From an uncultured Clostridia bacterium (lineage in GTDB: Bacteria > Bacillota > Clostridia > Peptostreptococcales > Anaerovoracaceae): 34,583 nucleotides of DNA. The stretch lies in the NCBI GenBank assembly GCA_944386095.1, contig CALWZU010000044.1:1-34583 (forward strand), given 5' to 3'. Position numbers and translations under genes: made by a program. The notes beneath the pieces were generated by a model, which had not been told where the DNA came from, ran no database searches, and worked only from the letters and a program-made list of their open reading frames with translations. Below, piece by piece: positions 3,842 through 19,054 of this stretch; positions within the stretch are counted from its first letter, which is position 1; every line of letters starts with the position of its first letter.

Positions 3842-3993
3842 ATCGGTTTCAAGGCTTCCGGCATGATCCGGCGGGAAAACCGGAGATTTAAAAAAGACGC
3901 TTATACACACAGCAGGGACGTTGCTGTTTAAAGAGAATGGGATTTTTAAGAAGCTTGGATATAAAAAAATCAGGAAACAGGAGTGTGAGAGAA

Positions 3994-5211: not shown

Positions 5212-5247
5212 CGCCCTTTCGGGGGAGGCGCTCTGAAGGGGAAGAAG

Positions 5248-5263
5248 CAGGCCTTCGGGCCTG
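5248..5263 (+). other. UUCG-tetraloop hairpin between argJ and argB
   Basis: CAGGCC, TTCG, GGCCTG forms a perfect 6-bp stem capped by a C(UUCG)G tetraloop, an unusually stable RNA fold. No T-run follows, so it is more likely an mRNA processing or stability element than a terminator. Confidence 0.6.
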
Positions 5264-5326
5264 ACAGAAGGAGCGGAGCGCAAAAGCCGCAAAGACAAAG
5301 GGAGCATATGAAGGAGTTAAATAAAG

Positions 5327-6193
5327 ATGACCTATACACTGATTGACCGGGCGCAGATCCTGGTAGAGGCGCTGCCTTATATCCAGAAGTATTACAATAA
5401 GACCATCGTGGTAAAATACGGCGGAAACGCCATGATCAATGAAGCGCTGTTTGACGCTGTTATGAGCGACATTGTCCTTTTGACCCTTGTGGGGCTGAAG
5501 GTGGTGGTGGTACACGGCGGCGGGCCGGAAATCAGCGAAATGCTGGCAAAAACCGGGAAGGAATCCGTTTTCCGGGACGGGCTGCGCTATACGGATGAGG
5601 AGACCATGGACGTGGTGCAGATGGTTTTGTGCGGCAAGGTCAACAAGAACCTGGTTTCCGCCATCAACCGCAAGGGAGGCAGAGCCATAGGGCTGTGCGG
5701 CGTGGACGGAGGCCTTCTGAAGGCCCAGAAGCTGGTTCGGGGGGATGGAAAGGAATACGGCCTTGTGGGAGATATTGTGGAGGTGGATCCCACTTTGGTG
5801 ATGGATGCTTTGGAAAAGGGCTATATACCGGTGGTTTCCACGGTGGCCCAGGGGCTTTACGACGAGCATTCCTACAATATCAATGCGGATACGGCCGCCT
5901 CGAAGCTGGCTGTGGCTTTGAAGGCGGAAAATCTGATGCTTTTGACCGATGTAAAGGGCGTACTGAGAAATCCCGCCGATCCGGATACGCTGATTCCGGA
6001 AATCCGGACCACGGAGGTGGATGCGCTGGAAAGAGAGGGGGTTATTACCGGAGGCATGATCCCCAAGATCGAATGCTGCGCGGAGGCGGTCAACGGAGGC
6101 GTTAAAAGGGCTACGATCTTTGATGGGAGGATACCTCACGCCCTTTTGATCGAGCTGTTTTCCGATATGGGAATCGGAACGATGATCCGCTGA
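5327..6193 (+). CDS. argB: Acetylglutamate kinase
   Basis: Second step of arginine biosynthesis: ATP-dependent phosphorylation of N-acetylglutamate. The 288-residue protein is of the amino acid kinase fold. Visible motifs are KYGGNAM (residues 30-36), the glycine-rich VVHGGGPEI (61-69), NINADTAA (substrate binding) and LLTDVKGVL. The N-terminal helix segment (RAQILVEALPYIQKYYNK) is the kind found in arginine-inhibited hexameric enzymes, so feedback inhibition is likely; this matches a pathway recycling acetyl groups through ArgJ. AAGGAG precedes the start by about 10 bases. It is the last gene of the operon; argD, which often follows, is missing here. Confidence 0.96.
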   Translation: MTYTLIDRAQILVEALPYIQKYYNKTIVVKYGGNAMINEALFDAVMSDIVLLTLVGLKVVVVHGGGPEISEMLAKTGKESVFRDGLRYTDEETMDVVQMVLCGKVNKNLVSAINRKGGRAIGLCGVDGGLLKAQKLVRGDGKEYGLVGDIVEVDPTLVMDALEKGYIPVVSTVAQGLYDEHSYNINADTAASKLAVALKAENLMLLTDVKGVLRNPADPDTLIPEIRTTEVDALEREGVITGGMIPKIECCAEAVNGGVKRATIFDGRIPHALLIELFSDMGIGTMIR

Positions 6194-6505: not shown

Positions 6506-6534
6506 TTGAAAAGGCCATCAAAACATAGTATACT
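6506..6534 (+). promoter_or_regulatory. Promoter of the dehydratase-thiolase operon
   Basis: TTGAAA (6506-6511), a 17-bp spacer and TATACT (6529-6534) form a near-consensus sigma-A promoter. Transcription would start near 6541, giving an untranslated leader of about 170 nt before the TTG start at 6713. No known riboswitch was recognised in that leader. Confidence 0.75.
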
Positions 6535-6712: not shown

Positions 6713-7945
6713 TTGGAACAAAAGGAAAAGATTTCGTCAAAAGAGATGTTAAACAATCTGATGGCAAACCATTACAAAAGCGCAATGGAAGCTAAGGCGA
6801 ACGGCGAACTGGTAGCATGGTCCACCTCCATCGCTCCTCAGGAGCTTCTGGAAACCATGGATATCAAAGTCGTTTATCCTGAAAACCATGCCGCAGCCAT
6901 CGGCGCCAGAAAAGAAGCGCAGAAGTTTATCGATGACGCGGAAGGAAGAGGATATTCCATCGACCTGTGCTCCTATGCCAGAGTCAACATCGGATACAAA
7001 AACATCCAGTATGCGGATGCAGAAAACATTCCCCTTCCCGATTTCATTTTCAGCTGCGACAATATCTGCCATACCGTACTCAAGTGGTATGAAAACCTGG
7101 CAAAAGACCTGAACATTCCACTGATCGTATTCGACATGCCGTTTAACCATACCTATGATGTTCCCGATCACGCGGTCAAATACATGAAGGGCCAGATCGA
7201 AGAAGCTATCAAGAGGCTGGAAAAGATCTCCGGCAAAAAATTCGACCACGACAGATTCAGAGAAGTCATGGAGCAGTCCAATAAAACCTCCCAGATGTGG
7301 AAGGACGCTTCCATGGTAGCAAAAGCGAAGCCTTCTCCGTTAAACGGATTTGACCTTTTCAACTATATGGCCGCCATCGTAACCTCCAGAGGGACAAAGG
7401 AAGGCTATGAGCTCTTCAAACGCTGGAAGGAAGAGCTGGAAGAAAAAGCCGCTGCCGGACTGGGCCCCTGGAAGCCGGGCGAAGAAGAAAAGTTCAGAGT
7501 TATGTGGGACGGCATCGCCTGCTGGCCTTATCTGGGACCCACATATAAAGGACTCAAGAACAACGGCATCAACATGGTAACCTCCACCTATCCCGATTCC
7601 TGGACGATCCTGTACGAAACAGGCGATGTTGACGGCATGGCAAGAGCTTACAGCTCCAATTACGTTAACAGAAACCTGAATTACGGCGTAGACAATATCG
7701 TAAACCTGATCAATGAATTCTCCCTGGACGGCGTTGTGTTCCACTCCAACAGAAGCTGCAAGCTGATGGACTTCAGACAGTATGAAGTACAGAGAGAAGT
7801 AGAAGAAAGAACCGGCGTTGTTTCCGTTATCTTCGACGGAGACCAGACAGACCCCAGAGCGTTCTCTACTGAACAGTACAACACGAGAATTCAGGCATTC
7901 CTTGAAATGCTCGAAAACAGGAAGGAAGAAAGGAGAAAGGGATAA
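6713..7945 (+). CDS. hadB: 2-hydroxyacyl-CoA dehydratase, alpha subunit (HadB/HgdA/FldB family)
   Basis: One of two subunits of an oxygen-sensitive iron-sulfur enzyme that removes water from an (R)-2-hydroxyacyl-CoA by a ketyl-radical mechanism. Starting at TTG 6713, with AGGAGG 8 bases upstream, the protein has 410 residues, close to C. difficile HadB as I recall it and lacking the long internal insertion of Acidaminococcus HgdA. Cysteines expected to hold the [4Fe-4S] cluster are seen in DLCSYAR (Cys86), CDNICHTVLKWYEN (Cys119) and NRSCKLMD (Cys349). The family motif FDGDQTDPRAF is near the C-terminus. An ATG frame extends 28 codons further upstream but has no ribosome binding site and codes for unlikely sequence. 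The stop overlaps the next start (TAATG), so the subunits are translationally coupled. Sequence feel is nearer HadB than HgdA, but the substrate cannot be assigned from sequence alone. Confidence 0.92.
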   Translation: MEQKEKISSKEMLNNLMANHYKSAMEAKANGELVAWSTSIAPQELLETMDIKVVYPENHAAAIGARKEAQKFIDDAEGRGYSIDLCSYARVNIGYKNIQYADAENIPLPDFIFSCDNICHTVLKWYENLAKDLNIPLIVFDMPFNHTYDVPDHAVKYMKGQIEEAIKRLEKISGKKFDHDRFREVMEQSNKTSQMWKDASMVAKAKPSPLNGFDLFNYMAAIVTSRGTKEGYELFKRWKEELEEKAAAGLGPWKPGEEEKFRVMWDGIACWPYLGPTYKGLKNNGINMVTSTYPDSWTILYETGDVDGMARAYSSNYVNRNLNYGVDNIVNLINEFSLDGVVFHSNRSCKLMDFRQYEVQREVEERTGVVSVIFDGDQTDPRAFSTEQYNTRIQAFLEMLENRKEERRKG

Positions 7946-9072
7946 TGGCTGACTTGAAGAATATGATCGCACAACTGGAACAGGTTGCGCTGGAACCGGC
8001 AAAAGCGGTTGCCGGAATCAAATCTGAAGGTAAAAAAGTAGTGGGAATGTTCCCTCTTTATCTTCCTGAGGAAATCGTTTATGCCGCCGGCATGATCCCG
8101 GTAGGCATGTGGGGCGGTCAGACGGAAATCAAGCTGGCTGACAGATATCTCCAGAGCTTTTGCTGCTCCATTATCAGAGCTGATCTGGAAATGGGCATGA
8201 GAGGCACTTATAACATGCTGGACGGTGTGATCATGGCAACCTACTGCGACACCCTCAAATGCGTCTGCGAAGACTGGAAGGTCGCCGTACCCCAGATCCC
8301 CTTTATCCCCATGGTTTATCCCCAGAACAGAAACATCCAGCCCGCTATCGAATACATGAAAGCGGAATTCTCCAGAGTGCAGGCGGAGCTGGAAAAGATC
8401 GCCGGCACAACCGTAACCGAAGAAAAGCTGGAAGCTGCATGGGAAGTATATGAAGCCTACAGAGCAGCCTGCAGAAAGTTCGTAAAGCTGGTAGAAAAAA
8501 TGCCAAAGACCCTCAACGCCAAAACCAGACACCTGATCCTGAAGGCATCCTGGTTTATGGACAAGAAGGTTTACACCGAAAAGCTCAACGCCATCATGGA
8601 AGCCATTGAAGCCGCTCCCGCGGAAGAATTCAACGGCACGAAGGTGGTTGTGGAAGGCATCATGACAGAGCCTTTGGCCCTGCTGGACGCTTTCGTGGAA
8701 AACAATGTATGCATCATCGCCGACGATCTGGCTCATGAATCCAGACAGTTCAGAACAGTAGGCAGAACCGAAGGAACCGTTTACGAGAGAATGGCCTACA
8801 GAATCGCCGATGCCAAGGGCGACGCGCTTCTGTATGAAGAAATGAAAACAAAAGGCCAGTTCCTGATCGATCTGGTAAAAGACAGCAAGGCTGACGGCGT
8901 GGTTGTCTGCATGATGAAATTCTGCGATCCGGAAGAATACGATTACCCGATCTTCAAGGTAGAGCTGGAAGAGGCCAAGGTGCCCATGCTGTACATGGAA
9001 ATCGAACAGAAGATGGATTCCGTAGAGCCTTTGAAGACCAGAATCCAGAGTTTCGCCGAAATGCTTTCATAG
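7945..9072 (+). CDS. hadC: 2-hydroxyacyl-CoA dehydratase, beta subunit (HadC/HgdB/FldC family)
   Basis: Partner subunit of the radical dehydratase. At 375 residues it has the family's usual length. Conserved blocks are YLPEEIVYAAGMIPVGMWGG (residues 39-58), SFCCSII (71-77), YCDTLKC (100-106), IADDLAHESRQF and VCMMKFCDPEEYDYP (cysteine near 327). These blocks supply the second iron-sulfur cluster and the acyl-CoA pocket. GGQTEIKLA after MW resembles 2-hydroxyisocaproyl-CoA dehydratase more than 2-hydroxyglutaryl-CoA dehydratase. The start codon overlaps the preceding stop by one base. Together with the upstream subunit and the downstream activator it forms a complete dehydratase system. Confidence 0.93.
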   Translation: MADLKNMIAQLEQVALEPAKAVAGIKSEGKKVVGMFPLYLPEEIVYAAGMIPVGMWGGQTEIKLADRYLQSFCCSIIRADLEMGMRGTYNMLDGVIMATYCDTLKCVCEDWKVAVPQIPFIPMVYPQNRNIQPAIEYMKAEFSRVQAELEKIAGTTVTEEKLEAAWEVYEAYRAACRKFVKLVEKMPKTLNAKTRHLILKASWFMDKKVYTEKLNAIMEAIEAAPAEEFNGTKVVVEGIMTEPLALLDAFVENNVCIIADDLAHESRQFRTVGRTEGTVYERMAYRIADAKGDALLYEEMKTKGQFLIDLVKDSKADGVVVCMMKFCDPEEYDYPIFKVELEEAKVPMLYMEIEQKMDSVEPLKTRIQSFAEMLS

Positions 9073-9087
9073 GAAAGGGAGAAAAAC

Positions 9088-9876
9088 GTGTTTTTTTTAG
9101 GAATTGACATCGGTTCATCTTCATCAAAAGCCGTTTTGATCGACGAGAACAAAAACATACTGGCCAGTGCGGCAAGAAATATCGGAACGGGAACAAACGG
9201 CCCCTCCATCGTGGTACAGGAGGTGCTGGAGGCGGCGGGCATCGCCAGAGACCAGATCCAGTTCACCGTTGTAACAGGCTACGGCAGGGTCAACTATACC
9301 CAGGCGGACAAACAAATCACAGAAATCAGCTGTCACGGCAAAGGCATCGCGCATCTGATTCCGGGCGCCCGGACGATTATCGACATCGGCGGTCAGGACG
9401 CGAAGGTCATCAAGCTTTCCCAGGACGGAACGGTTGAAAATTTTGTTATGAATGAAAAGTGCGCCGCCGGGACGGGAAGATTCCTGGAAGTCATGGCGCG
9501 TATCCTGAATTGTAATATTAATGAGCTTTCAGACTTGTCTCTGAAGTCAAAACACGATATAATCATTAGTAACACCTGTACGGTTTTCGCCGAATCTGAG
9601 GTTATTTCTCAGCTTGCGGGGGGAGCCTCCAAGGAAGACGTTGCAAAAGGCGCAGATAACGCGATCGCCTCCCGCGTGGCGGGTCTTGCTCGTCGGATCG
9701 GCATCGTTCCCATCGTTGCCATGTCCGGCGGCGTGGCAATGAACCCCAGCGTGGTAGCCTCTCTTTCCAGGGAGATCGGCGAAGAAATCACCGTAGCACC
9801 TCATCCCCAGACTGTGGGAGCTTTGGGTGCGGCGTTGTTTGCCCTTGAAGCGTACCAAAAAAAGGAAAAAAATTAA
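9088..9876 (+). CDS. hadI: 2-hydroxyacyl-CoA dehydratase activator (HadI/HgdC family)
   Basis: ATP-driven one-electron donor ('archerase') that energises the dehydratase. The homodimer is bridged by one [4Fe-4S] cluster. The 262-residue protein has the ASKHA ATPase fold: GIDIGSSSSK (residues 5-14), VVTGYGRVNY and IIDIGGQDAKVIKL. Cluster ligands are Cys125 (NEKCAAGTGRF) and Cys164 (SNTCTVFAESE), matching Cys127/Cys166 of Acidaminococcus HgdC. The start is GTG, preceded by AGGAAAGGGAG and followed directly by a run of eight T, so the first codons are slippage-prone. It sits 15 bp behind the beta subunit, within the operon. Confidence 0.94.
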   Translation: MFFLGIDIGSSSSKAVLIDENKNILASAARNIGTGTNGPSIVVQEVLEAAGIARDQIQFTVVTGYGRVNYTQADKQITEISCHGKGIAHLIPGARTIIDIGGQDAKVIKLSQDGTVENFVMNEKCAAGTGRFLEVMARILNCNINELSDLSLKSKHDIIISNTCTVFAESEVISQLAGGASKEDVAKGADNAIASRVAGLARRIGIVPIVAMSGGVAMNPSVVASLSREIGEEITVAPHPQTVGALGAALFALEAYQKKEKN

Positions 9877-9896
9877 CAGAAAGGATGTTGAAGACA

Positions 9897-10760
9897 ATGG
9901 AATTCAAAAAAGTGGCTATGATCGGTGCCGGCACTATGGGTAACCAGATCGCTATGCAGTGCGCAATTTGCGGCTATGACGTAACCTGCTACTCCAGAAG
10001 ACAGACAACTGTTGACAAGGCTCAGGCTTTCTCCGACAAGTGGTTTGCCGGCAGAGTTGCAAAAGGCAAGATGACGCAGGAAGAAGTTGACGAAATCCAG
10101 AAGAGACTGATTTTCACAAACGACCTGAAGACAGCCTGCGAAGGCGCTGACCTGGTAATCGAAGCCGTTGCCGACGTAATCGACACAAAGAAAAAGGTAC
10201 TGGCGGATGTAGACGCTCTTACCCCGGACAACACCATTTATGCGTCCAACAGCTCCTACATCGTTGCTTCTCTGTTCTGCGACGCTGTAAAGCATCCTGA
10301 AAGAGTGATCAACCTTCACTTCTTCAATCCCGCTCTGGTTATGAAGTGCGTTGAAGTTGTAAAAGGACCTCACGCTTCCCAGGAAGTTATCGACGAAATG
10401 GTAGAATTCGTAAAATCCATCAAGAAGGTTCCCTCCGTTGTTAACAAGGAAATCTATGGATTTATCGTAAACAGAATCTTCAGCGCTATGACAAAGGAAG
10501 CCTGCTATCTGCTGGATCAGGGCGTAGCTTCCGTAGAAGACATCGACAACGCTGTAAAGAACGGCCTTGGCCACAGCATGGGTCCCCTGGAACTGCTTGA
10601 CATGACCGGCATCGATCTGGAATACGATGTTCTGATGCAGAAATACAGATTAACAGGCGATCTGGCCGACAAACCGTCTCCCGGTCTTGTAGAAAGATAC
10701 GCAAGAGGCGACTATGGCAGAAAGACAGGAAAAGGCTTCTACGAATATCCTGCTAAATAA
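9897..10760 (+). CDS. hbd: 3-hydroxyacyl-CoA (3-hydroxybutyryl-CoA) dehydrogenase
   Basis: Interconverts acetoacetyl-CoA and (S)-3-hydroxybutyryl-CoA. The 287-residue product has the single-domain bacterial Hbd length. The Rossmann motif is GAGTMG (residues 10-15), the catalytic histidine is His141 in LHFFNPA, and the C-terminal domain has GFIVNRI and GLGHSMGPLELLDMTG. At the end of the second strand, where NAD-dependent members carry an acidic residue, this one has CYSRRQ (Ser33-Arg34-Arg35), which suggests NADP(H). Start 9897 was chosen over the ATG at 9885 because AAAGGA abuts the earlier codon but is 11 bases from this one. Next to crt and thl, it can act in oxidation of crotonyl-CoA or in butyrate synthesis. 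Confidence 0.93.
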   Translation: MEFKKVAMIGAGTMGNQIAMQCAICGYDVTCYSRRQTTVDKAQAFSDKWFAGRVAKGKMTQEEVDEIQKRLIFTNDLKTACEGADLVIEAVADVIDTKKKVLADVDALTPDNTIYASNSSYIVASLFCDAVKHPERVINLHFFNPALVMKCVEVVKGPHASQEVIDEMVEFVKSIKKVPSVVNKEIYGFIVNRIFSAMTKEACYLLDQGVASVEDIDNAVKNGLGHSMGPLELLDMTGIDLEYDVLMQKYRLTGDLADKPSPGLVERYARGDYGRKTGKGFYEYPAK

Positions 10761-10776
10761 GTAAGAGGTGTCATAC

Positions 10777-11538
10777 ATGGAAGATTTGGTACTTTACGAG
10801 AAAGTCGGTAATATCGGCGTTCTGAAAGTGAACAGACCAAAAGCGTTCAATGCGTTGAGCAGAGAGGTTGTCGATGAAATCGACAACAAGCTGGCAATCA
10901 TCGAAAAAGACGAAGAGATCAGAGCTCTGATCGTGACCGGCGACGGCAATTTTGCAGCCGGAGCCGACATCGTCGCCATGGTAGAGTTGAATCCGGAGCA
11001 GGCGAGAGCCTTCCTTTTCTCCGACACATTCAACCGCCTGGAAAACCTGAGCATTCCCACCATCGCCGCCGTATGCGGCTATGCCCTGGGCGGCGGGCTG
11101 GAGCTGGCACTGACCTGTGACTTCAGGATCGCTTCCGAAGATGCGAAGGTCGGTCTTCCGGAAATCACACTGGGTATCATGCCCGGCGCCGGCGGAACCG
11201 TCAGACTTCCCAGATTGATCGGCGAAGCAAAGGCAAAGGAAATGATTCTGCTGGGCGGACAGATCAAGGCGGATGAGGCTCTGAAGGCCGGACTTTTCAC
11301 GAAGGTGGTTCCCAAGGAGGAACTGTTCGACGAGGCCATGAAATTGGCGGAAAAGCTGGCGCAGAGACCCAAGCTGGCCCTGAAAGCCGCAAAACAGTCC
11401 ATTAACAATGGAAAAGCTCAGGCTGAAGCGATCGTTAAAGAGGCAGACATCTGGTCGAGCTTATTCGCAACACATGATCAAAAAGAAGGCATGAGAGCCT
11501 TCGTTGATAAAAGAAAACCGCAGTATATTGGTAAATAG
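10777..11538 (+). CDS. crt: Enoyl-CoA hydratase / crotonase
   Basis: Hydrates crotonyl-CoA to (S)-3-hydroxybutyryl-CoA and works in reverse in butyrate formation. From ATG 10777 the product has 253 residues, normal for short-chain crotonase. The oxyanion-hole segment is FAAGADIVAM, and the two catalytic glutamates are Glu109 in GGGLELAL and Glu129 in LPEITLGIMPGAGG, 20 residues apart as in rat crotonase. A GTG three codons earlier overlaps the AGAGGTG ribosome binding site and was rejected. Gaps of 16 and 12 bp to hbd and thl support co-transcription. It would take the enoyl-CoA released by the dehydratase if that product is crotonyl-CoA. Confidence 0.93.
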   Translation: MEDLVLYEKVGNIGVLKVNRPKAFNALSREVVDEIDNKLAIIEKDEEIRALIVTGDGNFAAGADIVAMVELNPEQARAFLFSDTFNRLENLSIPTIAAVCGYALGGGLELALTCDFRIASEDAKVGLPEITLGIMPGAGGTVRLPRLIGEAKAKEMILLGGQIKADEALKAGLFTKVVPKEELFDEAMKLAEKLAQRPKLALKAAKQSINNGKAQAEAIVKEADIWSSLFATHDQKEGMRAFVDKRKPQYIGK

Positions 11539-11550
11539 GAGGACACAATT

Positions 11551-12732
11551 ATGCGAAATGTAGTAGTAGTAGCTGCCGCTAGAACAGCTATTGGTACCAT
11601 CAACGGACAGTTCAAAACCTTAACACCTGTTGAACTGACAGTACCTGTAATGGAAGCCCTGATCGACAGAGCCGGCATCGACCCTGCCATCATCGACGAA
11701 GTTATCTGGGGTGAAAACTATCAGAGAACCTATCTGGAAAACAACATCGCCAGAGTATGTGCTGTTAAAGCCGGATGCCCCGTAACATCCGCTCCTGGTA
11801 TCACCATTCACAGAAACTGCACATCTTCCCTTTCTTCCGTACAGTTCGGTTACTATCAGATCAAAGCCGGCGACGCTGACTGCATCCTGGCAGGTGGTAC
11901 GGAATCCATGACCGCTGCTCCTTTCATGACATTTGACATGAGAGCCGGCAAGAAATTCGGTCACTCCCAGCTGAGAGACTCCATGTGGGATTCTCTGTCC
12001 AGCGCTGGCGTTGGCTGCTCCATGGGTATGACAGCTGAAAACGTTGCTGAAAGATACGGCATCACAAGAGAAATGCAGGACGAACTGGCCTGTGAATCTC
12101 AGAGAAGAGCGACAGCTGCTATCAACGAAGGAAAATTCAAGGATGAAATCGTTCCGATCACAGTAAAACTGAAGAAGAGCGAAGTTGTTGTGGACACAGA
12201 CGAATATCCGAAACCGGGCACCACAATGGAAGGTCTTGCCAAGCTGAGAGCTTCCTTCAAGGATGGCGGTACCGTAACAGCCGGTAATGCTTCCGGTATG
12301 AACGACGCTTCCTCCGGCGTAATCCTGATGTCCGAAGAAAAAGCCAAGGAACTGGGCTGCAACATCCTGTGCAGAGTTGCCAGCGTATTCGTAGCCGGCG
12401 TTGATCCTGATTACATGGGTATCGGACCTCTCTTCGCAATTCCTAAGGCTTGCGAAAAGGCTGGTATCGAAGTGAAAGACTTAGACCTGGTTGAACTGAA
12501 CGAAGCATTCGCTGCTCAGGCCTGCGCCTGCATCAGAGAACTGGGACTCAACAAGGAAATCGTTAACGTAAACGGTTCCGGTATCTCCCTTGGTCACCCG
12601 GTTGGTGCTACAGGTACCAGAATGATCACAACTCTGATCTATGAAGCCAAGAGAAGAGGAAACGTTAAATGGGCTTGCGCATCCGCTTGCGCCGGCACCG
12701 GTATGGGCGTTGCCGTTGTATTCGAATTCTAA
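11551..12732 (+). CDS. thlA: Acetyl-CoA C-acetyltransferase (thiolase)
   Basis: Cleaves acetoacetyl-CoA to two acetyl-CoA, or condenses them. The 393-residue protein has the standard thiolase II length. Active-site residues are Cys90 (HRNCTSSLSS), His349 (GISLGHPVGATG) and Cys380 (SACAGTGMG). NEAFAAQA is also present. The last motif is CAGTGMG where most acetyl-CoA thiolases have CIGGGMG or CIGGGQG, and the nucleophile motif is NCTSSL, not VCGSGL, so this is a somewhat divergent member whose chain-length preference cannot be assumed. It ends the six-gene operon; a 140-bp gap with a GC-rich hairpin follows. Confidence 0.9.
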   Translation: MRNVVVVAAARTAIGTINGQFKTLTPVELTVPVMEALIDRAGIDPAIIDEVIWGENYQRTYLENNIARVCAVKAGCPVTSAPGITIHRNCTSSLSSVQFGYYQIKAGDADCILAGGTESMTAAPFMTFDMRAGKKFGHSQLRDSMWDSLSSAGVGCSMGMTAENVAERYGITREMQDELACESQRRATAAINEGKFKDEIVPITVKLKKSEVVVDTDEYPKPGTTMEGLAKLRASFKDGGTVTAGNASGMNDASSGVILMSEEKAKELGCNILCRVASVFVAGVDPDYMGIGPLFAIPKACEKAGIEVKDLDLVELNEAFAAQACACIRELGLNKEIVNVNGSGISLGHPVGATGTRMITTLIYEAKRRGNVKWACASACAGTGMGVAVVFEF

Positions 12733-12760
12733 TCGGGCTGCATAAGATTCTTTTGCGGCG

Positions 12761-12785
12761 GGGAGGGCCGAGAGCTCTCCCGGCC
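12761..12785 (+). other. GC-rich hairpin after thiolase gene
   Basis: Two overlapping pairings are possible: GGGAG (12761-12765) with CTCCC (12777-12781), or GGCCG (12766-12770) with CGGCC (12781-12785). There is no T-run, so it is more likely a 3'-end stabiliser or partial terminator. No convincing promoter was seen in the gap before the next gene. Confidence 0.45.
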
Positions 12786-12872
12786 GTAAATCATCGGAAA
12801 ATTCCGGCGGGTCATATAACAAAAGGCTCGGGATGTTATCATTCGTGAAATAAGAAAGAGGTAAATACTGAA

Positions 12873-14240
12873 ATGAACTACTATAAGCTGAGTACTGTTC
12901 AGGAAGAGTACAAGAAAAAATTAAAGACTGCTGATGAAGCTGTCAAAATCATTAAATCCGGTGACAGAGTACACTATGGTCTGTTCAACGGTCTGGTTGT
13001 TGACCTGGATGAAGCGCTGGCTAAGAGAACAGAAGAGTTGCATGATGTTATCATCATGACCACTATCTGGGCTTGGCCCTTCCCGCCCAAAATCCTGGAA
13101 GCCGACCCCAAGGCGGAACACTTCAAGTATCTGAGCACACAGTTCAGCGGCACTGACAGAAAAATGAACAAGCAGGGCTGCTGCTGGTACATTCCTGTAC
13201 AGTTCAGAGAAAACCCCAAATACTGGGCAGAATGTGTAGAACCCTGTGACGTTGTAATGCTGCAGACCGGTCCTATGGACAAATGGGGCAACTTCAACCT
13301 GGGACCACAGGTTGCGGAATACTGGGGCATCTTCAAGAACGCGAAGCACATCATCGTTGAAATCAACGAAAAACAGCCCAAGACCCACGGCGTAGGCATC
13401 TCCCTGAACATTTCCGAAATCGATACCATCGTTGAAGGCAGAAACATCGACATGCCTCAGGTAAAACCGAAGGATCCTTCCGAAATCGACAAGAAGATCG
13501 CTTCTCACATCATCAACAAGATCAAAGACGGCTCCACCATGCAGCTGGGTGTAGGCGGACTTCCCAACTATATCGGTTCTCAGCTGGCTGAATCCGATGT
13601 TAAGGATCTGGGCGTTCACTCCGAAATGTTCGTAGACGCTTATCTGAAGCTGTATGAAGCCGGCAAGATCACAGGCGACAGAAAGAACATCAACAAGCGT
13701 CAGCTGGTACATACATTCTGCCAGGGTTCTCAGGCTCTGTATGATTTCCTGGATGACAATCCGATCGTACAGTGTATGCCGGTAGACTATGTAAATGATA
13801 TCGGCGTTATCGCTTCCAATGACAATGTTGTTTCCATCAACAGCTGTCTGCAGGTAGACATTCAGGGTCAGGTTAACTCCGAATCTGACGTATGGCAGCA
13901 TATCGGCGGAAACGGCGGACAGGTAGACTTCGTACTGGGCGCTTTCAAATCCAACGGCGGACAGTCCTTCCTGTGCACTCCTTCCACCAGAACTTATAAA
14001 GATGGTCACGTTGAATCCCTCATCGTTCCCAGACTGATCGAAGGCGCGACCGTTACCGTTCCCAGAACAGGCCCGCACTATATCGTAACAGAATATGGCG
14101 CTGTTAACCTGAAGGGAAGATCCATGTGGGAAAGAGCGGAACTGCTCATCAGCATCGCTCACCCCGATTTCCAGGATGATCTGGTAAGAGAAGCAGAAAG
14201 AATGGGTCTGTGGAAGACTTCTTCCAAAATCACATACTAG
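12873..14240 (+). CDS. Acyl-CoA:acetate CoA-transferase (butyryl-CoA / 4-hydroxybutyrate CoA-transferase family)
   Basis: Family I-type CoA-transferase that exchanges CoA between an acyl-CoA and a carboxylate through a glutamyl-CoA thioester. The 455-residue protein resembles bacterial butyryl-CoA:acetate CoA-transferase (But) and the 4-hydroxybutyrate transferase AbfT/Cat2. The predicted nucleophile is Glu251 in GVHSEMFVDAY, and the CoA-binding loop is LGVGGLPN (residues 225-232). C-terminal HYIVTEYGAVNLKG and RAELLISIAHPDF are family hallmarks. Its neighbours, a class III aminotransferase and an iron alcohol dehydrogenase, favour use of 4-hydroxybutyrate or a related hydroxy acid. The 2-hydroxyacyl-CoA dehydratase operon upstream makes a 2-hydroxy acid a second possible substrate. 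AAAGAGG lies ahead of the start. Confidence 0.85.
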   Translation: MNYYKLSTVQEEYKKKLKTADEAVKIIKSGDRVHYGLFNGLVVDLDEALAKRTEELHDVIIMTTIWAWPFPPKILEADPKAEHFKYLSTQFSGTDRKMNKQGCCWYIPVQFRENPKYWAECVEPCDVVMLQTGPMDKWGNFNLGPQVAEYWGIFKNAKHIIVEINEKQPKTHGVGISLNISEIDTIVEGRNIDMPQVKPKDPSEIDKKIASHIINKIKDGSTMQLGVGGLPNYIGSQLAESDVKDLGVHSEMFVDAYLKLYEAGKITGDRKNINKRQLVHTFCQGSQALYDFLDDNPIVQCMPVDYVNDIGVIASNDNVVSINSCLQVDIQGQVNSESDVWQHIGGNGGQVDFVLGAFKSNGGQSFLCTPSTRTYKDGHVESLIVPRLIEGATVTVPRTGPHYIVTEYGAVNLKGRSMWERAELLISIAHPDFQDDLVREAERMGLWKTSSKITY

Positions 14241-14257
14241 TTTTGAGAAGATAAAAC

Positions 14258-14279
14258 GGGGCAAAGGCACCTTTGCCCC
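14258..14279 (+). other. Hairpin after CoA-transferase gene
   Basis: GGGGCAAAG (14258-14266), loop GCAC, CTTTGCCCC (14271-14279) is a perfect 9-bp stem located 18 bases after the stop codon. It is terminator-like but has no following T-run, so read-through or RNA stabilisation is likely. Confidence 0.6.
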
Positions 14280-14283
14280 ACTG

Positions 14284-14295
14284 ATTTACGTAAAT
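14284..14295 (+). promoter_or_regulatory. 12-bp perfect palindrome upstream of the aminotransferase gene
   Basis: ATTTACGTAAAT is a perfect palindrome about 85 bp before the aminotransferase start. Its symmetry without a loop suggests a DNA-binding site for a dimeric regulator. Further on, ATGCG (14301-14305) and CGCAT (14318-14322) form another short inverted repeat. Confidence 0.4.
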
Positions 14296-14379
14296 AGTTG
14301 ATGCGCTGCTTTTCTGACGCATTGATTATTTAATACAAGTTTCTCAAAAGGTTATCATTTTAAAAGGAGGACGATTATT

Positions 14380-15693
14380 ATGCCAATGAAATTTGAGGAT
14401 TACAAACAGTATTTATCCCCAGTATTCTCAAAGAGCTCCGATCTCGTTGCGGGCGAAGGCCACGGTCTTTATATTACAGACGTAAACGGCGTTAAATATC
14501 TGGATATGATTCAGGGTATTGCTGTAAACGTAGCCGGACATACACATCCCAAGATCGTTAAGGCGATTCAGGACCAGGCTGGAAAGCTGATCCACGCTTC
14601 CTTCAACCATGTTAACTATCCTACCACTCTGGAACTTGCCAAGAGACTGGCTTCTGTTGCTCCTGGCGAAGGCGAAAAGAAATTAACAAGCCTCTTCTTC
14701 TCCAACGGTGGTGCGGAAGCGACAGACAGTGCGATCAAACTGGCCAGATGCGCAACAGGCAGACCGCTGATCATCGCTTGCCAGGGTTCCTTCCACGGCA
14801 GAACTGTGGGCGCTACATCCGTTACAGGTTCCAACTCTCACTACAGAGAAGCTTATGAACCATTAATGGGCGGCGTTTACTGGACACCGTTCCCCCAGAG
14901 AATTCTTTGCCCCGATTCCATCGACAATGACGATCTGGAAGGCAGAGCGGATTATTGCCTGTGGATGCTGGAGAACCTGCTGAAGTTCCTGGCTCCGCCG
15001 AAAGAAGTAGCTGCGATCATCATGGAACCCATCCAGGGTGAAGGCGGATACGTTGCTCCTCATCCGAAGTTCTTAAAGGGCGTTAGAGAAATCTGCGACA
15101 AGCACGGCATTCTCCTGATCTTTGACGAAATCCAGTCCGGATTCGGCAGAACAGGTAAAATGTGGGCAAGCCAGCACTTTGATGTAGTTCCGGATATCAT
15201 GACAACCGGTAAAGCCATCGGCGGCGGTCTCCCCATGTCCTGCGTATGGTCTACACCTGCTATCATGGATAGATGGAACAAAGGTACCCACGGAACAACC
15301 TTCGGCGGCAACCCGGTTTGCGCTGCTGCTGGTCTTGCTGTACTGGATGTTATCGAAGAAGAAGGCCTGATCGAAAACAGCAGAGTAATGGGTGATTATC
15401 TCCAGAAACAGCTGAAAGAAATGCAGAAGAGACATAAGATCATCGCTGACATCAGAGGTATCGGCCTCATGACAGCTGCTGAATTCTGCAAACCCGGCAC
15501 CTTCGAACCTGATGCCAATGCTCTTTCCTTCATCACCAAATACCTCAGAGAAGAAGAACACATGCTCACAACAGGTTGCGGCGTAAATGGAAACGGCTTC
15601 AGATTCATCATGCCTCTGAACATCAAGCAGGAAGAAGTTGATCTGTGCCTCGAAAAATTCGAAAAGGCTGTTGCGGCTTACGAAGCAAAATAA
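14380..15693 (+). CDS. gabT: Class III aminotransferase, 4-aminobutyrate aminotransferase-like
   Basis: PLP-dependent fold-type I enzyme that moves a terminal amino group, most likely from 4-aminobutyrate to 2-oxoglutarate. The 437-residue length fits GabT better than ArgD (about 400). Visible motifs are NGGAEATDSAIKLAR (residues 109-123), GSFHGRT (136-142), EPIQGEGG (216-223), the FDEIQSGFGRTG block with Asp249 contacting the PLP nitrogen, and TTGKAIGGG with Lys278 as the Schiff-base lysine. AGGAGG lies 9 bases ahead of the start. Between a CoA-transferase and an iron alcohol dehydrogenase it fits GABA fermentation. Because no argD accompanies argCJB in this window, an acetylornithine role is a possible alternative. 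Confidence 0.82.
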   Translation: MPMKFEDYKQYLSPVFSKSSDLVAGEGHGLYITDVNGVKYLDMIQGIAVNVAGHTHPKIVKAIQDQAGKLIHASFNHVNYPTTLELAKRLASVAPGEGEKKLTSLFFSNGGAEATDSAIKLARCATGRPLIIACQGSFHGRTVGATSVTGSNSHYREAYEPLMGGVYWTPFPQRILCPDSIDNDDLEGRADYCLWMLENLLKFLAPPKEVAAIIMEPIQGEGGYVAPHPKFLKGVREICDKHGILLIFDEIQSGFGRTGKMWASQHFDVVPDIMTTGKAIGGGLPMSCVWSTPAIMDRWNKGTHGTTFGGNPVCAAAGLAVLDVIEEEGLIENSRVMGDYLQKQLKEMQKRHKIIADIRGIGLMTAAEFCKPGTFEPDANALSFITKYLREEEHMLTTGCGVNGNGFRFIMPLNIKQEEVDLCLEKFEKAVAAYEAK

Positions 15694-15753
15694 GCAGGCT
15701 GCACCGTCTGACAGAATCAACATCATAAACTAAGGTTCAATTGTAATTCGTGC

Positions 15754-15781
15754 TCAGCCTGTGCACCCGTGCACAGGCTGA
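15754..15781 (+). other. 13-bp perfect inverted repeat between aminotransferase and dehydrogenase genes
   Basis: The arms 15754-15766 (TCAGCCTGTGCAC) and 15769-15781 are perfect complements separated by CC, giving a very stable hairpin 42 bases before the next start codon. No T-run follows. It may stabilise upstream mRNA, partly terminate, or bind a regulator as DNA. Confidence 0.6.
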
Positions 15782-15823
15782 TTATCTCACGCTTCCAAAA
15801 TGAAATAAAGAGGAGTGATAACC

Positions 15824-17008
15824 ATGAAAGATTTTGAATTCAAAATGCCTGCCAGAGTAAAATTTGGTGAAGGAATCAGCAAACAGATCGGTCAGGTTCT
15901 CAGAGATATGGGATACAAGAAGGTATTCATCGCTACCGATAAAGGTATCGTTGCTGCCGGCATTATCGCTCAGATCGAAGAAGGTCTGAAGGCCGGAAAC
16001 TTCGAATACCAGGTATATGATGAACTGATTCCGGATCCCACCATCGAAGTCGTTGACGAAGCGGCTGAGGTTCTGAGAAAGAGCGGCGCGGACGTTGTTC
16101 TGGCAGTTGGCGGCGGCAGCCCCATCGACACGGCGAAAGCCATGTGCATGCTGCAGACACACGAAGGCTCCATCAGAGAATACCTCTTTGGCGGAACCAA
16201 ATCCGTTACCAATCCTATCATGCCTTTGATCTGCATCCCCACAACGGCTGGCACCGGTTCCGAAATGACCGCTGCTTCCGTTATCACAAACAATCAGAAC
16301 AAGACCAAGGTTTCCGTAACCCACGAAAACCTGATCCCCAAATATGCTCTGATCGATCCCATGCTCCAGCTGGGCTGCCCTCCGTTCATCACCGCTACAA
16401 CCGGTATGGATGCGCTGACACATGCCATCGAGTCTTACATCTCCAACAGAGCTAACCCCATCAGCGAAGCCATGTCCCTGCAGGCCATCAGAATGATCGG
16501 CAAGAACATCAGAACCGCTGTTGGCGCTGGTTCCGCTATGGAAGCCAGAAGCAACATGGCAGTTGCCTCCACCATCGCCGGCGTTGCCTTCATGAACGGC
16601 GGACTGGGCGTTGTACACGGCATCGGCCAGACCATCGGCGCGATTGCACACGTACCCCACGGCGTTGCCATGACTCTGCTGCTGCCCTACTGCATGGAAA
16701 GATCTGTTGTAGGTAATTTTGAAAAATTCAAGGATATCGCCATTGCGCTGGGCAAGAACGTAGAAGGTCTTGACCTGAGAGACGCTGCTTTCGCAGCGGT
16801 TGACGCCGTATTCGAAATGGCGGAAGATCTGAGAGTGCCCATGAGATTATCCGAACTGGATCCTGCCAAGAGACAGTGCTCCGAGCCGATCACAGAGGCT
16901 ATGTTCGATGAGATCATCGAGGACGTTATGAACTACAGACTCCTGGCTGACACACCGGTCAAAATCACCAGAGACGACGTTAGAGCGATCCTGGAGGCTG
17001 CGTTATAA
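15824..17008 (+). CDS. Iron-containing alcohol dehydrogenase (candidate 4-hydroxybutyrate dehydrogenase)
   Basis: Group III metal-dependent alcohol dehydrogenase; here a likely job is reducing succinate semialdehyde to 4-hydroxybutyrate with NAD(P)H. The 394-residue protein has GGGSPIDTAKAM (residues 97-108) and PTTAGTGSE (139-147) for nucleotide binding, and metal ligands Asp196 and His200 (GMDALTHAIE), His265 (VVHGIG) and His279 (HVPHG). The start is ATG 15824, with GAGGAG about 10 bases upstream; an in-frame GTG three codons earlier overlaps that site. The sequence also resembles 1,3-propanediol and general alcohol dehydrogenases, so the substrate assignment rests on the neighbouring CoA-transferase and aminotransferase. 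A strong terminator follows. Confidence 0.85.
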   Translation: MKDFEFKMPARVKFGEGISKQIGQVLRDMGYKKVFIATDKGIVAAGIIAQIEEGLKAGNFEYQVYDELIPDPTIEVVDEAAEVLRKSGADVVLAVGGGSPIDTAKAMCMLQTHEGSIREYLFGGTKSVTNPIMPLICIPTTAGTGSEMTAASVITNNQNKTKVSVTHENLIPKYALIDPMLQLGCPPFITATTGMDALTHAIESYISNRANPISEAMSLQAIRMIGKNIRTAVGAGSAMEARSNMAVASTIAGVAFMNGGLGVVHGIGQTIGAIAHVPHGVAMTLLLPYCMERSVVGNFEKFKDIAIALGKNVEGLDLRDAAFAAVDAVFEMAEDLRVPMRLSELDPAKRQCSEPITEAMFDEIIEDVMNYRLLADTPVKITRDDVRAILEAAL

Positions 17009-17053
17009 TCAAAACGGCGGCCCTCTGGGGCTGTATAAGAGAAAACGATCAGC

Positions 17054-17093
17054 AAAACGCCTTTCCCGGAGATATTTCGGGGAAGGCGTTTTT
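17054..17093 (+). terminator. Intrinsic terminator after the alcohol dehydrogenase gene
   Basis: A 10-bp stem AAAACGCCTT / AAGGCGTTTT, extended by CCC/GGG across a one-base bulge, ends in TTTTT. It closes the transcription units from 6506 onwards. Confidence 0.88.
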
Positions 17094-17168
17094 CCCATCC
17101 GGCAAAACCCCATCCGGCAAAACCCCATCCGGCAAAACCCTATCCGGTAAAAACCCATCCGGCAAAGA
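17094..17168 (+). repeat. 15-bp tandem repeat, five units
   Basis: The unit CCCATCCGGCAAAAC occurs three times perfectly (17094-17108, 17109-17123, 17124-17138), followed by two diverged units (17139-17153 and 17154-17168). It directly abuts the terminator. It is non-coding and too short and spacer-free to be a CRISPR. The following 170 bp (17169-17340) show no gene or clear signal. Confidence 0.9.
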
Positions 17169-17343
17169 GAAGAAACGGCAGGGCTGGAAAAGGCGAAGGG
17201 CGGAGGGGGACCGGTGAAACCCAGGGCTGAGAGAAAGGGAAATACCTAAAAAAAGACAGTGATAATTTCTGAAACCAGAGGAATTCTAAAAAAGAATGAC
17301 GGTATAATCCAGAACATCTGTCGAAATTGCTGAAAATCGAACT

Positions 17344-17381
17344 TTTTACAGAAGACAGAGTAGGCAGAATTTTCTGTAAAA
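17344..17381 (+). promoter_or_regulatory. Upstream inverted repeat of the TTACAG motif
   Basis: TTTTACAGAA (17344-17353) and TTCTGTAAAA (17372-17381) are perfect 10-bp complements 18 bp apart. The right arm ends 3 bp before the -35 hexamer. This looks like an operator with two half-sites on nearby helical turns. Confidence 0.55.
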
Positions 17382-17384
17382 GGA

Positions 17385-17413
17385 TTGACAAACCAGGTGA
17401 AATAATATAGATT
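17385..17413 (+). promoter_or_regulatory. Promoter of the dehydrogenase-ridA pair
   Basis: Consensus TTGACA (17385-17390), 17-bp spacer and TAGATT (17408-17413); a TATAGA two bases earlier is an alternative -10. It lies between two groups of TTACAG/CTGTAA motifs. Confidence 0.65.
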
Positions 17414-17435
17414 TATTACAGAAGTGTTACTGGAA

Positions 17436-17458
17436 ATTACAGCAAAGGTGGCTGTAAT
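17436..17458 (+). promoter_or_regulatory. Downstream inverted repeat of the TTACAG motif
   Basis: ATTACAGC (17436-17443), spacer AAAGGTG, GCTGTAAT (17451-17458) is a perfect 8-bp inverted repeat in the early transcribed region, 32 bp before the start codon. A further TTATTACAGAAG copy lies at 17413-17424. It may be an operator or an RNA hairpin. Confidence 0.55.
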
Positions 17459-17490
17459 GATAAATTATTTTTTAACAGGGAGGACCTCGT

Positions 17491-18516
17491 ATGAGCAAGA
17501 AAAAAGTAGTATATTACAACGTTGACGACACTCTTGATTTTGAAAATCAGCTTCTGAAAGAGTGGGGCGTAGATGACATCGAACTGATCGAGTTCAAAAA
17601 CGGCGAAGACAGAGACAAGCCGGAAGCTTTCCTGGAAGCAACAAAAGATGCGGATGGCATCGTAGTTGAATTCTTCGACGTAAACGCCAGCGTTATCGAA
17701 AAGATGGACAAATGTAAGATCGTAGCTCTGCAGGCGATCGGTTATTCCAACGTTGATATCGATGCTGCTACCGAAAAAGGCATGGCCGTTACCAACAGCC
17801 CCGGATTCTGCACACCTGAAGTTGCGGTACATACAGTAGGTCTGATTATCGACCTGGCAAGAAAAATCACATTCCTTGACAGAACCGTAAGAGAAGGAGA
17901 ATGGAATCCTCATCTCTGCGGCCCCATGGTAAAGAGACTGGCTGGTCAGACTGTAGGTCTGGTATTCTTTGGCTCCATTCCAAAGTACATGATTCCTATT
18001 CTGAAGGCCATGGAAATGAAGGTTACCTGCTGGGCTCCCACAAAGACCGCAGAATACCTTGCTGAATTCGGCGTAGAAAAAGTAGAAACACTGGAACAGT
18101 TGCTGAAGGAATCCGATTTCGTATCCCTGCACTGCCCGCTGGTTATGAAAGAAACACCCGGCAGACCTTCCACCTATCACATCATCGGCGAAAAAGAACT
18201 GAAGATGATGAAGCCCTCCGCTTATCTGATCAACACAGCCAGAGGCCAGGTCATCGATGAAGCAGCTCTTGTAAAAGCCCTGAAAGAAGGCTGGATCAGA
18301 GGCGCAGGCGTAGACGTAATCGAAGACGAAGCAACGGAAAAATCCGAACTGTTTGGTCTGGACAACGTAATCTGCACACCTCATGCTGCTTTCGTTTCCG
18401 TTGAAGCTTTCGAGGATGCCAGAATCATCGCTCTGAGACAGCTGGTTGAACTGCTCCACGACAATAAGGTTCCGGAAAATCTGGTTAACAAAGCAGTTGC
18501 GGACAAACTCTTATAA
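17491..18516 (+). CDS. D-2-hydroxyacid dehydrogenase-family protein with an altered NAD-binding loop
   Basis: Member of the D-isomer-specific 2-hydroxyacid dehydrogenase superfamily (CtBP/PGDH-like), 341 residues. The expected role is NAD(P)H-dependent reduction of a 2-oxo acid to the (R)-2-hydroxy acid that would feed the dehydratase. The catalytic triad is intact: Arg251 (NTARGQ), Glu280 (VDVIEDE) and His298 (CTPHAAF). The nucleotide-binding glycine loop is not: where the family has GxGxxG this protein reads FFGSIP (residues 159-164), keeping one of three glycines, and the usual acidic residue after the second strand is alanine (WAPTK, residue 182). It may use NADP(H), bind cofactor differently, or have another function. 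GGGAGGA precedes the start. It has its own promoter and is followed 50 bp later by ridA. Confidence 0.85.
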   Translation: MSKKKVVYYNVDDTLDFENQLLKEWGVDDIELIEFKNGEDRDKPEAFLEATKDADGIVVEFFDVNASVIEKMDKCKIVALQAIGYSNVDIDAATEKGMAVTNSPGFCTPEVAVHTVGLIIDLARKITFLDRTVREGEWNPHLCGPMVKRLAGQTVGLVFFGSIPKYMIPILKAMEMKVTCWAPTKTAEYLAEFGVEKVETLEQLLKESDFVSLHCPLVMKETPGRPSTYHIIGEKELKMMKPSAYLINTARGQVIDEAALVKALKEGWIRGAGVDVIEDEATEKSELFGLDNVICTPHAAFVSVEAFEDARIIALRQLVELLHDNKVPENLVNKAVADKLL

Positions 18517-18520
18517 TCGT

Positions 18521-18538
18521 TAGTTATTGTTATAACTA
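18521..18538 (+). promoter_or_regulatory. Inverted repeat before ridA
   Basis: TAGTTAT, spacer TGTT, ATAACTA is a perfect 7-bp inverted repeat just after the preceding stop and 28 bp ahead of ridA. It is AT-rich and more like a repressor site than a stable RNA hairpin. Confidence 0.45.
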
Positions 18539-18566
18539 TAAATTTCAACTAAAAGGAGATGTAAAG

Positions 18567-18953
18567 ATGAAACAGACAGCTATTTTTAACGAAAAAACTT
18601 TAGGCGAAGTACATGGCCCATACGTTCAGGGAACAAAATATCGTGATTTATTCTTCACAACTCAGATCGCTACTCTTCCCAATGGCGACATGGTTCCGAA
18701 TGATTATTACGAACAGACAAAGCAGACTCTGCTGAACGCTCAGGCTGCTGCTGCTGAAGTTGGCGCTACTCTGCAGGACTGCCTCACATGCAGAATCTTC
18801 ATCCTGGACTACAATATGTATGATGAAGTAAACAGAGCTTACAAAGAAATCATGCCCAACAATCCGTTCCCCACAAGAGCTTGCCTGCAGATCTCCAGAA
18901 TGCTGCCGGACGTACTGGTTGAAATGGAATTCATCTTCAGATGCGACGAATAA
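18567..18953 (+). CDS. ridA: RidA/YjgF family enamine-imine deaminase
   Basis: Small cytosolic trimer-forming protein that hydrolyses reactive enamine/imine intermediates, classically 2-aminoacrylate and 2-aminocrotonate released by serine and threonine dehydratases. The 128-residue length is standard. The key arginine that binds the substrate carboxylate is present as Arg104 in FPTRACLQ (Arg105 in E. coli), followed by the usual DVLVEMEFIF end. AAAAGGAG lies ahead of the start. Pairing with a 2-hydroxyacid dehydrogenase-like gene hints at a 2-oxo acid produced from an enamine, for example 2-oxobutyrate from threonine; that link is inference. Terminated by a strong hairpin 64 bases later. Confidence 0.9.
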   Translation: MKQTAIFNEKTLGEVHGPYVQGTKYRDLFFTTQIATLPNGDMVPNDYYEQTKQTLLNAQAAAAEVGATLQDCLTCRIFILDYNMYDEVNRAYKEIMPNNPFPTRACLQISRMLPDVLVEMEFIFRCDE

Positions 18954-19017: not shown

Positions 19018-19054
19018 CTGGATACGGAATCCCATTTCCGTATCCAGTTTTTTT
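19018..19054 (+). terminator. Intrinsic terminator after ridA
   Basis: CTGGATACGGAA (19018-19029), loop TCCCAT, TTCCGTATCCAG (19036-19047) is a perfect 12-bp stem followed by seven T. It separates the fermentation block from the ribosomal operon. Confidence 0.95.

Follow-up and report, generated by a model that had tools for sequence, protein, structure and literature searches.

A HadBC-like dehydratase sub-family joined to a thiolytic module in an uncultured Clostridia bacterium: a putative second entrance to crotonyl-CoA

Clostridium aminobutyricum and Evtepia gabavorous are fermenters of 4-aminobutyrate (GABA), a process which in C. aminobutyricum involves AbfD, AbfT and AbfH. The 2-hydroxyglutarate pathway (HgdAB and Gcd) uses a ketyl-type dehydration toward crotonyl-coenzyme A (CoA), and the known enzymes of the 2-hydroxyacyl-CoA dehydratase family, such as HadBCI and FldBCI, serve as the way into the reductive branch when amino acids are fermented, which is where PMC11574389 places the family. 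In the acrylate pathway (Pct and LcdAB), lactoyl-CoA dehydratase converts 2-hydroxybutyryl-CoA to crotonyl-CoA (PMC8473912 and PMC10053330). Here we describe an island of eleven genes in a stretch of 34,583 nucleotides (contig CALWZU010000044.1 of assembly GCA_944386095.1, from an uncultured Clostridia bacterium of the Anaerovoracaceae; hereafter the window), in which a HadBC-like dehydratase and its activator share an operon with genes for 3-hydroxyacyl-CoA dehydrogenase (hbd), crotonase (crt) and thiolase (thl).

We propose that this island is a hub at which C4 amino and hydroxy acids are made into crotonyl-CoA, which is then cleaved to acetyl-CoA, and that the substrate of its dehydratase is a short 2-hydroxyacyl-CoA, with (R)-2-hydroxybutyryl-CoA as the likeliest candidate. 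The probability that we give to this reading, with its predicted substrate, is about 0.45; there is good support for the convergence on crotonyl-CoA, and the gene calls of the first-pass annotation hold, as do the two routes that can be drawn from them. Such a hub exists as physiology, since C. homopropionicum grows on 2-, 3- or 4-hydroxybutyrate and has homologues of abfD, abfT, pct and lcd (PMC4591306). In the proposed scheme the GabT-like aminotransferase, the iron-containing alcohol dehydrogenase (Fe-ADH) and the CoA-transferase would carry GABA to 4-hydroxybutyryl-CoA, which AbfD, encoded elsewhere in the genome, would convert to crotonyl-CoA. The second entrance would be the HadBC-like dehydratase with its ATP-driven activator, whose ketyl-radical mechanism, predicted from the family and the conserved residues, would strip the alpha-hydroxyl from a short (R)-2-hydroxyacyl-CoA to give crotonyl-CoA. 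Hydration by Crt, oxidation by Hbd and cleavage by Thl would turn crotonyl-CoA into two acetyl-CoA, and an acyl-CoA dehydrogenase with Etf, also encoded elsewhere in the genome, may reduce the remainder to butyryl-CoA. The sub-family would be specialised for its union with the thiolytic module, the Had and Fld enzymes feeding the reductive branch instead. 2-Hydroxybutyrate is favoured because the module ends in Crt, Hbd and Thl and because lactoyl-CoA dehydratase is known for the reaction, the reference cited for it reportedly being Hofmeister and Buckel of 1992.

Every part of the island is of a known kind; the combination and the dehydratase sub-family look new. The first-pass annotation knew of no operon coupling HadBC-type dehydration directly with crotonase, Hbd and thiolase. 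Our literature search is in keeping with this, having returned no description of HadBC-type genes with Crt, Hbd and Thl or in GABA loci from the parts of the literature that it reached, which is weak evidence of absence as most subscription journals lay outside its range. If the sub-family does supply the oxidative, thiolytic branch, butyrate and acetate formation would gain a further entrance; the sub-family occurs in C. aminobutyricum (three loci) and E. gabavorous. Family scores suggest that score-based annotation likely hides this sub-family, naming its genes after 2-hydroxyisocaproyl- or 2-hydroxyglutaryl-CoA dehydratase.

The dehydratase and its clade

Family scans identified all of the genes named in the first-pass annotation: both dehydratase subunits and the activator, hbd, crt and thl, the CoA-transferase, the GabT-like aminotransferase, Fe-ADH, a 2-hydroxyacid-dehydrogenase-like protein (2-HADH) and RidA. 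The superfamily signature is present, with two PF06050 subunits adjacent to a TIGR00241 activator, and the HadB (NF052455) and HadC (NF052456) equivalogs are the best matches of the two subunits, yet both remain under the cut-offs (Table 1). A clade member from C. aminobutyricum scores similarly (549 bits for HadB and 461 for HadC), while the control, taken from an Fld-type locus of Peptostreptococcus (L132), clears the HadB cut-off with 765 against 750 bits. The predicted alpha subunit (mean predicted local distance difference test value, pLDDT, 90.8) superposes on 3o3m_A with a template modelling score (TM-score) of 0.94. Cys84, Cys117 and Cys346 of this subunit, which we take to be the cluster cysteines, are found in 63/63 rows of the clade described below, as is Glu55, and Ser37 is found in 62/63; Ser37 and Glu55 are presumably functional residues.

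For the phylogeny, a scan of the collection gave 220 dehydratase relatives, of which the best 80 were kept, and a quick maximum-likelihood tree of 85 rows was built. L040, which contains only distant family members, L041, L042 and L044-L048, which duplicate later loci, and rows with a BLAST match to the window protein of 330 residues or fewer were omitted, and the gene caller lost hadB to opposite-strand frames in L092, L099, L111 and L118. The window dehydratase falls within a clade of 63 rows (Shimodaira-Hasegawa-like approximate likelihood ratio test, SH-aLRT, 99), with C. difficile HadB and the Fld-type loci outside. The rows are not independent, C. aminobutyricum contributing three and several genomes two.

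Neighbours were counted within 8 kb on the same strand; C. difficile HadB was not part of the count, and the genes of the window row were supplied manually. One or more of Hbd, Thl and Crt can be found near the dehydratase in 45 of the 63 clade rows (two or more of them in 41) and in 0/21 outside rows; since the rows are related, the Fisher value of 2e-9 for this contrast is a description and no test. Class I CoA-transferases are nearby in 43/63 clade rows against 2/21 outside, whereas the class III type (HadA/FldA) is nearby in 0/63 against 13/21, and the family scan found none in the window. The corresponding counts for Bcd are 16/63 and 15/21, and GabT (14/63) and AbfD (6/63) are both absent from the outside neighbourhoods. 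These sequence comparisons mark the dehydratase off as a sub-family of its own, which is linked to the thiolytic module and has a predicted substrate. It resembles HadBCI and FldBCI in its two subunits and activator, cluster ligands, Ser37 and Glu55, and fold, and differs from them in forming a clade of its own, in scoring below the cut-offs, in being accompanied by a class I and not a class III CoA-transferase, and in being joined to Crt, Hbd and Thl.

HadBC is the closest solved relative, as would be expected of a common HadBC/FldBC enzyme for branched-chain or aromatic 2-hydroxyacyl-CoA that stands beside butyrate genes by accident. This explanation is improbable given the sub-cut-off scores beside an Fld-type protein that clears the cut-off, the separate clade, the 36 positions which consistently distinguish the clade from nine Had/Fld rows, and the missing class III CoA-transferase. 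It is likewise very unlikely that the protein is an ATP-driven reductase or electron donor like its double-cubane or benzoyl-CoA reductase relatives: they have the superfamily and fold in common with it, and Bcd is at times a neighbour, but the alpha subunit still has the dehydratase residues Ser37 and Glu55 along with all three cysteines, and the scores of those reductases are far below that of HadBC.

Besides C. aminobutyricum and E. gabavorous, named carriers among the dehydratase relatives include [Clostridium] viride, Anaerovorax odorimutans, Emergencia timonensis, Sinanaerobacter chloroacetimidivorans and [Clostridium] symbiosum, together with metagenome-assembled genomes (MAGs) of Syntrophomonas and Smithellaceae. 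The gene order of the window (hadBCI-hbd-crt-thl-CoA-transferase-gabT-FeADH-2HADH, which we call type A) recurs in L060, L063, L064 and L114, and also in L073, where crt is missing; the proteins of these loci are 45-77% identical to those of the window, and a sigma-54 regulator takes the place of argB in front. In the close relatives L055, L056 and L057 most genes are 79-91% identical and argB is still in front. Chance does not account for the block, since distant relatives have it among different neighbours.

Some operons of the clade have further genes. RidA lies 3' of 2-HADH in L073, L181 and L182, and likewise in L060, where the end of the locus truncates it. A transporter-like gene and flavoproteins like sarcosine oxidase or D-amino-acid dehydrogenase lie 3' of some operons (L181:3279-6534, L182:296-5065, L082:13606-17993 and L070:16667-21176); these flavoproteins would produce imines, and RidA adjoins them in L181 and L182. 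A FabA/FabZ-like dehydratase gene, perhaps for (R)-3-hydroxybutyryl-CoA, stands between the activator and the CoA-transferase in clusters of the C. aminobutyricum type (L083, with PF07977, and L084, L085, L067 and L089).

Candidate substrates of the dehydratase

At Ser85, Trp262, Ala266, Leu271 and Thr274 of the alpha subunit the clade agrees with two loci outside it, L134 and L051, and differs from the Had/Fld rows. In both of these loci a gene of 521-524 residues (of the CoA_trans family in L134) adjoins the dehydratase, like pct of the acrylate pathway, and from this arrangement they look like Pct-lactoyl-CoA dehydratase loci. The window system is thus like Pct-LcdAB in its probable reaction and in these residues, and unlike it in that its block has no Pct-type gene and includes a thiolase, Anaerotignum being without thiolase according to PMC10053330. 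The shared residues point to a short substrate. A second set, Thr287, Thr289, Ser293 and Ser342, points to a polar one: Ser293 and Ser342 occur in 0 outside rows, Thr287 in one and Thr289 in six.

A number of observations weigh against (R)-2-hydroxybutyryl-CoA as the substrate, or against the hub as drawn. Grouping of the clade with the Lcd-like loci, its nearest with a CoA_trans-family gene in a set that holds no named LcdAB, is supported at only 84; Trp262 and Ala266 are also present in most of the other outside rows apart from Had/Fld, and may therefore be ancestral; and Hbd, Thl and Crt are all missing nearby in 18/63 clade rows, in some for want of flank. Had/Fld have Ala and Met at the sites of Ser293 and Ser342, and an ethyl side chain would not call for polar residues there. 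In 7/7 type-A rows (window, L056, L060, L063, L064, L073 and L114) 2-HADH has VGLVFFGSIP and not the NAD-binding GxGxxG motif. Its Arg is kept in 7/7 of these rows and its Glu and His in all 6 that reach them, these being presumably the catalytic residues, but as the usual NAD-binding glycines are absent it is weakened as a 2-oxoacid reductase. Among five relatives with the same operon the matches to threonine ammonia-lyase are two long ones below the cut-off (326 and 337 bits), one fragment (194) and two of at most 75 bits. The first-pass route from threonine through 2-oxobutyrate to 2-hydroxybutyryl-CoA therefore stands in part: the final reaction is known for lactoyl-CoA dehydratase and the context fits, whereas the link to threonine is uneven and the candidate reductase lacks the expected motif. 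Threonine as the sole source was rejected, being unsupported across the relatives.

The polar residues suit a 2-hydroxyacyl-CoA with a second functional group, such as 2,4-dihydroxybutyryl-CoA, which would be dehydrated to 4-hydroxycrotonyl-CoA and then be brought to crotonyl-CoA by an acyl-CoA dehydrogenase and AbfD. A single substrate of this kind would account for the joint occurrence of HadBCI and AbfD. AbfD proteins (PF11794) are present in 39/44 genomes reached through clade loci, and AbfD-like proteins in 54/148 genomes of the order, a contrast which mixes a profile query in the former with a protein query in the latter; in addition, AbfD adjoins the dehydratase in some clade rows and Bcd in more (6 and 16, as counted above), and Ser293 and Ser342 are confined to the clade. 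Thr289, however, is also found in outside rows, and clade genomes without AbfD exist. Five of the 44 lack PF11794 (G050, G067, G074, G075 and G078), and G035, which is rated 100% complete and has two clade copies, lies outside the 54 AbfD-positive genomes, on which its lack of AbfD rests. The clade thus occurs with AbfD frequently and not always, and we consider the 2,4-dihydroxy substrate rather unlikely. Stated more broadly, the clade could be a new specificity class of ketyl-radical dehydratases, acting on a polar C4 2-hydroxyacyl-CoA (for example 2,4-dihydroxybutyryl-CoA) or another acyl-CoA in series with AbfD, and forming a second, undescribed route into crotonyl-CoA for GABA-type fermenters; this is a tentative idea of limited likelihood.

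In two loci a tripartite ATP-independent periplasmic (TRAP) transporter precedes the dehydratase genes: in a Smithellaceae MAG it is 5' of the CoA-transferase and HadBCI (L116:5431-13136), and in C. aminobutyricum it is 5' of the CoA-transferase, Fe-ADH, Bcd-EtfBA and HadBCI (L094:920-13110). Because of this order, an imported acid may be the substrate of the dehydratase there.

AbfD and the predicted GABA route in the source genome

The source genome comprises 128 contigs with a total of 1.70 Mb and is 94% complete. The first-pass annotation had AbfD as missing, which holds for the window and not for the genome: one PF11794 protein of 495 residues is encoded on contig C124. Its best solved relative is C. 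aminobutyricum AbfD, 1u8v (936 bits; 83% identity over the 206 residues compared), and it retains the motifs holding the four cluster ligands, which we take to be Cys99, Cys103, His292 and Cys299. The sole PF02771 match (acyl-CoA dehydrogenase) is on C1, where it adjoins genes that read as Etf-like from their sequence and not from a family scan, and a threonine ammonia-lyase scores 477 bits against a curated cut-off of 378.75. The gene set from GABA through crotonyl-CoA to butyryl-CoA is complete in the genome, and with AbfD on another contig the step to crotonyl-CoA does not need the window dehydratase. A second, distant PF06050 pair is present on C43 (L040, G000:C43:1640-4701), one member of which is fused to an activator domain.

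The dehydratase occupies the place expected for AbfD in the type-A operon, and G050 has the full operon (L114) and no PF11794 match; both facts would follow if the dehydratase replaced AbfD and acted directly on 4-hydroxybutyryl-CoA. We rejected this for the window since AbfD is in the genome, and in general hold it to be highly improbable: AbfD is in 39/44 genomes, the ketyl mechanism requires an alpha-hydroxyl, and G050 is a MAG which may be incomplete.

With respect to GABA fermentation as it is known in C. aminobutyricum, the window has GabT, Fe-ADH and the CoA-transferase family in common and a close AbfD elsewhere in its genome, and differs in the absence of AbfD from its operon and in its aminotransferase. 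In C. aminobutyricum itself the crystallised AbfD is at a locus with a CoA-transferase and Fe-ADH and without HadBCI, so HadBCI lies outside the published GABA locus. One HadBCI locus of this species has an AbfD paralogue that shares 66% identity with 1u8v, along with a different CoA-transferase; as the crystallised AbfD is elsewhere and the adjoining CoA-transferase is not 3gk7, the identity of this cluster with the published locus was ruled out.

The class III aminotransferase keeps Ile50, Arg141, Glu211, Lys268, Thr297 and Arg398, presumably the GABA aminotransferase substrate residues of E. coli GabT, in all of the 17 type-A rows compared (four of them repeats of a gene; L168-L171 and L173 were left out by the frame filter), and the homologue in G035 does not have this set. 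The aminotransferase is only 38% identical to its best match in C. aminobutyricum, and the identity to the aminotransferases near AbfD in C. viride and Evtepia is about 37%, which argues for another lineage. Fe-ADH and the CoA-transferase (scored against TIGR03948, butyryl-CoA:acetate) fit their families and do not reach the curated cut-offs (Table 1).

That GabT yields glutamate from 2-oxoglutarate, and that polar residues lie near the cluster cysteines, would be in line with a 2-hydroxyglutaryl-CoA dehydratase whose product, glutaconyl-CoA, is decarboxylated to crotonyl-CoA. The membrane subunit of glutaconyl-CoA decarboxylase (PF03977) had no match in the source genome, and had 0/7 in this and the same-operon genomes (G000, G016 and G041-G045, where G016 is probably the same genome as G041), from which 2-hydroxyglutarate is unlikely for the window. 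Among the 18 genomes searched 9 have PF03977, including the four distant type-A carriers tested (G046, G048, G049 and G050), where the route is therefore possible, but the family also covers other decarboxylases and the block has no gct-like gene. As an account of the dehydratase in general, this pathway is very improbable, and the preferred substrate remains (R)-2-hydroxybutyryl-CoA.

Gene layout and adjoining features

The island is on the + strand between argCJB and nusG-rplKAJL-rpoBC, and its eleven genes are all open, in the order of Table 1. The hadB and hadC genes overlap by 1 base and the following gaps to hadI, hbd, crt and thl are of 15, 8, 7 and 12 bases; hadBCI-hbd-crt-thl (6713-12732) is a single tight operon block, as the first-pass annotation had it. 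Wider gaps precede the CoA-transferase gene (140 bases), gabT (139), the Fe-ADH gene (121), the 2-HADH gene (482) and ridA (50), and the five genes 3' of thl, for which the same operon is only likely, may form one or more further transcripts. The promoter- and terminator-like matches are barely above shuffled sequence (17 against 13.9 and 20 against 15.3).

Table 1. Features of the island, with window coordinates and supporting matches (bit scores are given as score/cut-off where a cut-off applies)
Feature	Position	Strand	Evidence
Promoter-like site (TTGAAA-17-TATACT), 5' of block	6506..6534	+	Consensus match only
Dehydratase alpha subunit, HadB-like; TTG start behind AGGAGG	6713..7945	+	PF06050 271.6 bits; HadB equivalog 514/750 bits; best solved relative 3o3m_A
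Dehydratase beta subunit, HadC-like	7945..9072	+	PF06050 267.9 bits; HadC equivalog 444/700 bits; 3o3m_B
ATP-dependent activator, HadI-like	9088..9876	+	TIGR00241 261/125.4 bits; PF01869
3-Hydroxyacyl-CoA dehydrogenase (Hbd)	9885..10760	+	PF02737, PF00725
Crotonase (Crt)	10768..11538	+	PF00378 (ECH_1); best NCBIfam short-chain enoyl-CoA hydratase, below cut-off
Thiolase (Thl)	11551..12732	+	TIGR01930 432.8/240.55 bits
Class I CoA-transferase, 4-hydroxybutyrate/butyryl-CoA transferase family	12873..14240	+	Acetyl-CoA hydrolase/transferase family; TIGR03948 512/674.8 bits; solved relatives are 4-hydroxybutyrate CoA-transferases
Class III aminotransferase, GabT-like	14380..15693	+	PF00202; E. coli GabT residues kept
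Fe-ADH, probably 4-hydroxybutyrate dehydrogenase	15815..17008	+	PF00465; below all NCBIfam cut-offs shown, e.g. NF058672 260.8/500 bits
Promoter-like site inside 482-base gap, 5' of 2-HADH gene	17385..17413		Consensus match only
2-HADH, altered nucleotide-binding motif	17491..18516	+	PF02826, PF00389; VGLVFFGSIP motif
RidA-like protein	18567..18953	+	PF01042 75.6 bits
Terminator-like stem with T run, 3' of ridA	19018..19047	+	Consensus match only

A sigma-54 promoter 5' of the block was considered and dropped, the loose -24/-12 pattern giving 124 matches in the window against 118 expected, which is no signal. The argCJB genes (window 2879-6193) are immediately 5' of the block only here and in close relatives (L055, L056, L057 and L117); in L058 a very long gene separates argB from hadB. 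Farther 3', the window contains a ribosomal protein L10 leader (RF00557, 21517-21646, 59.5 bits).

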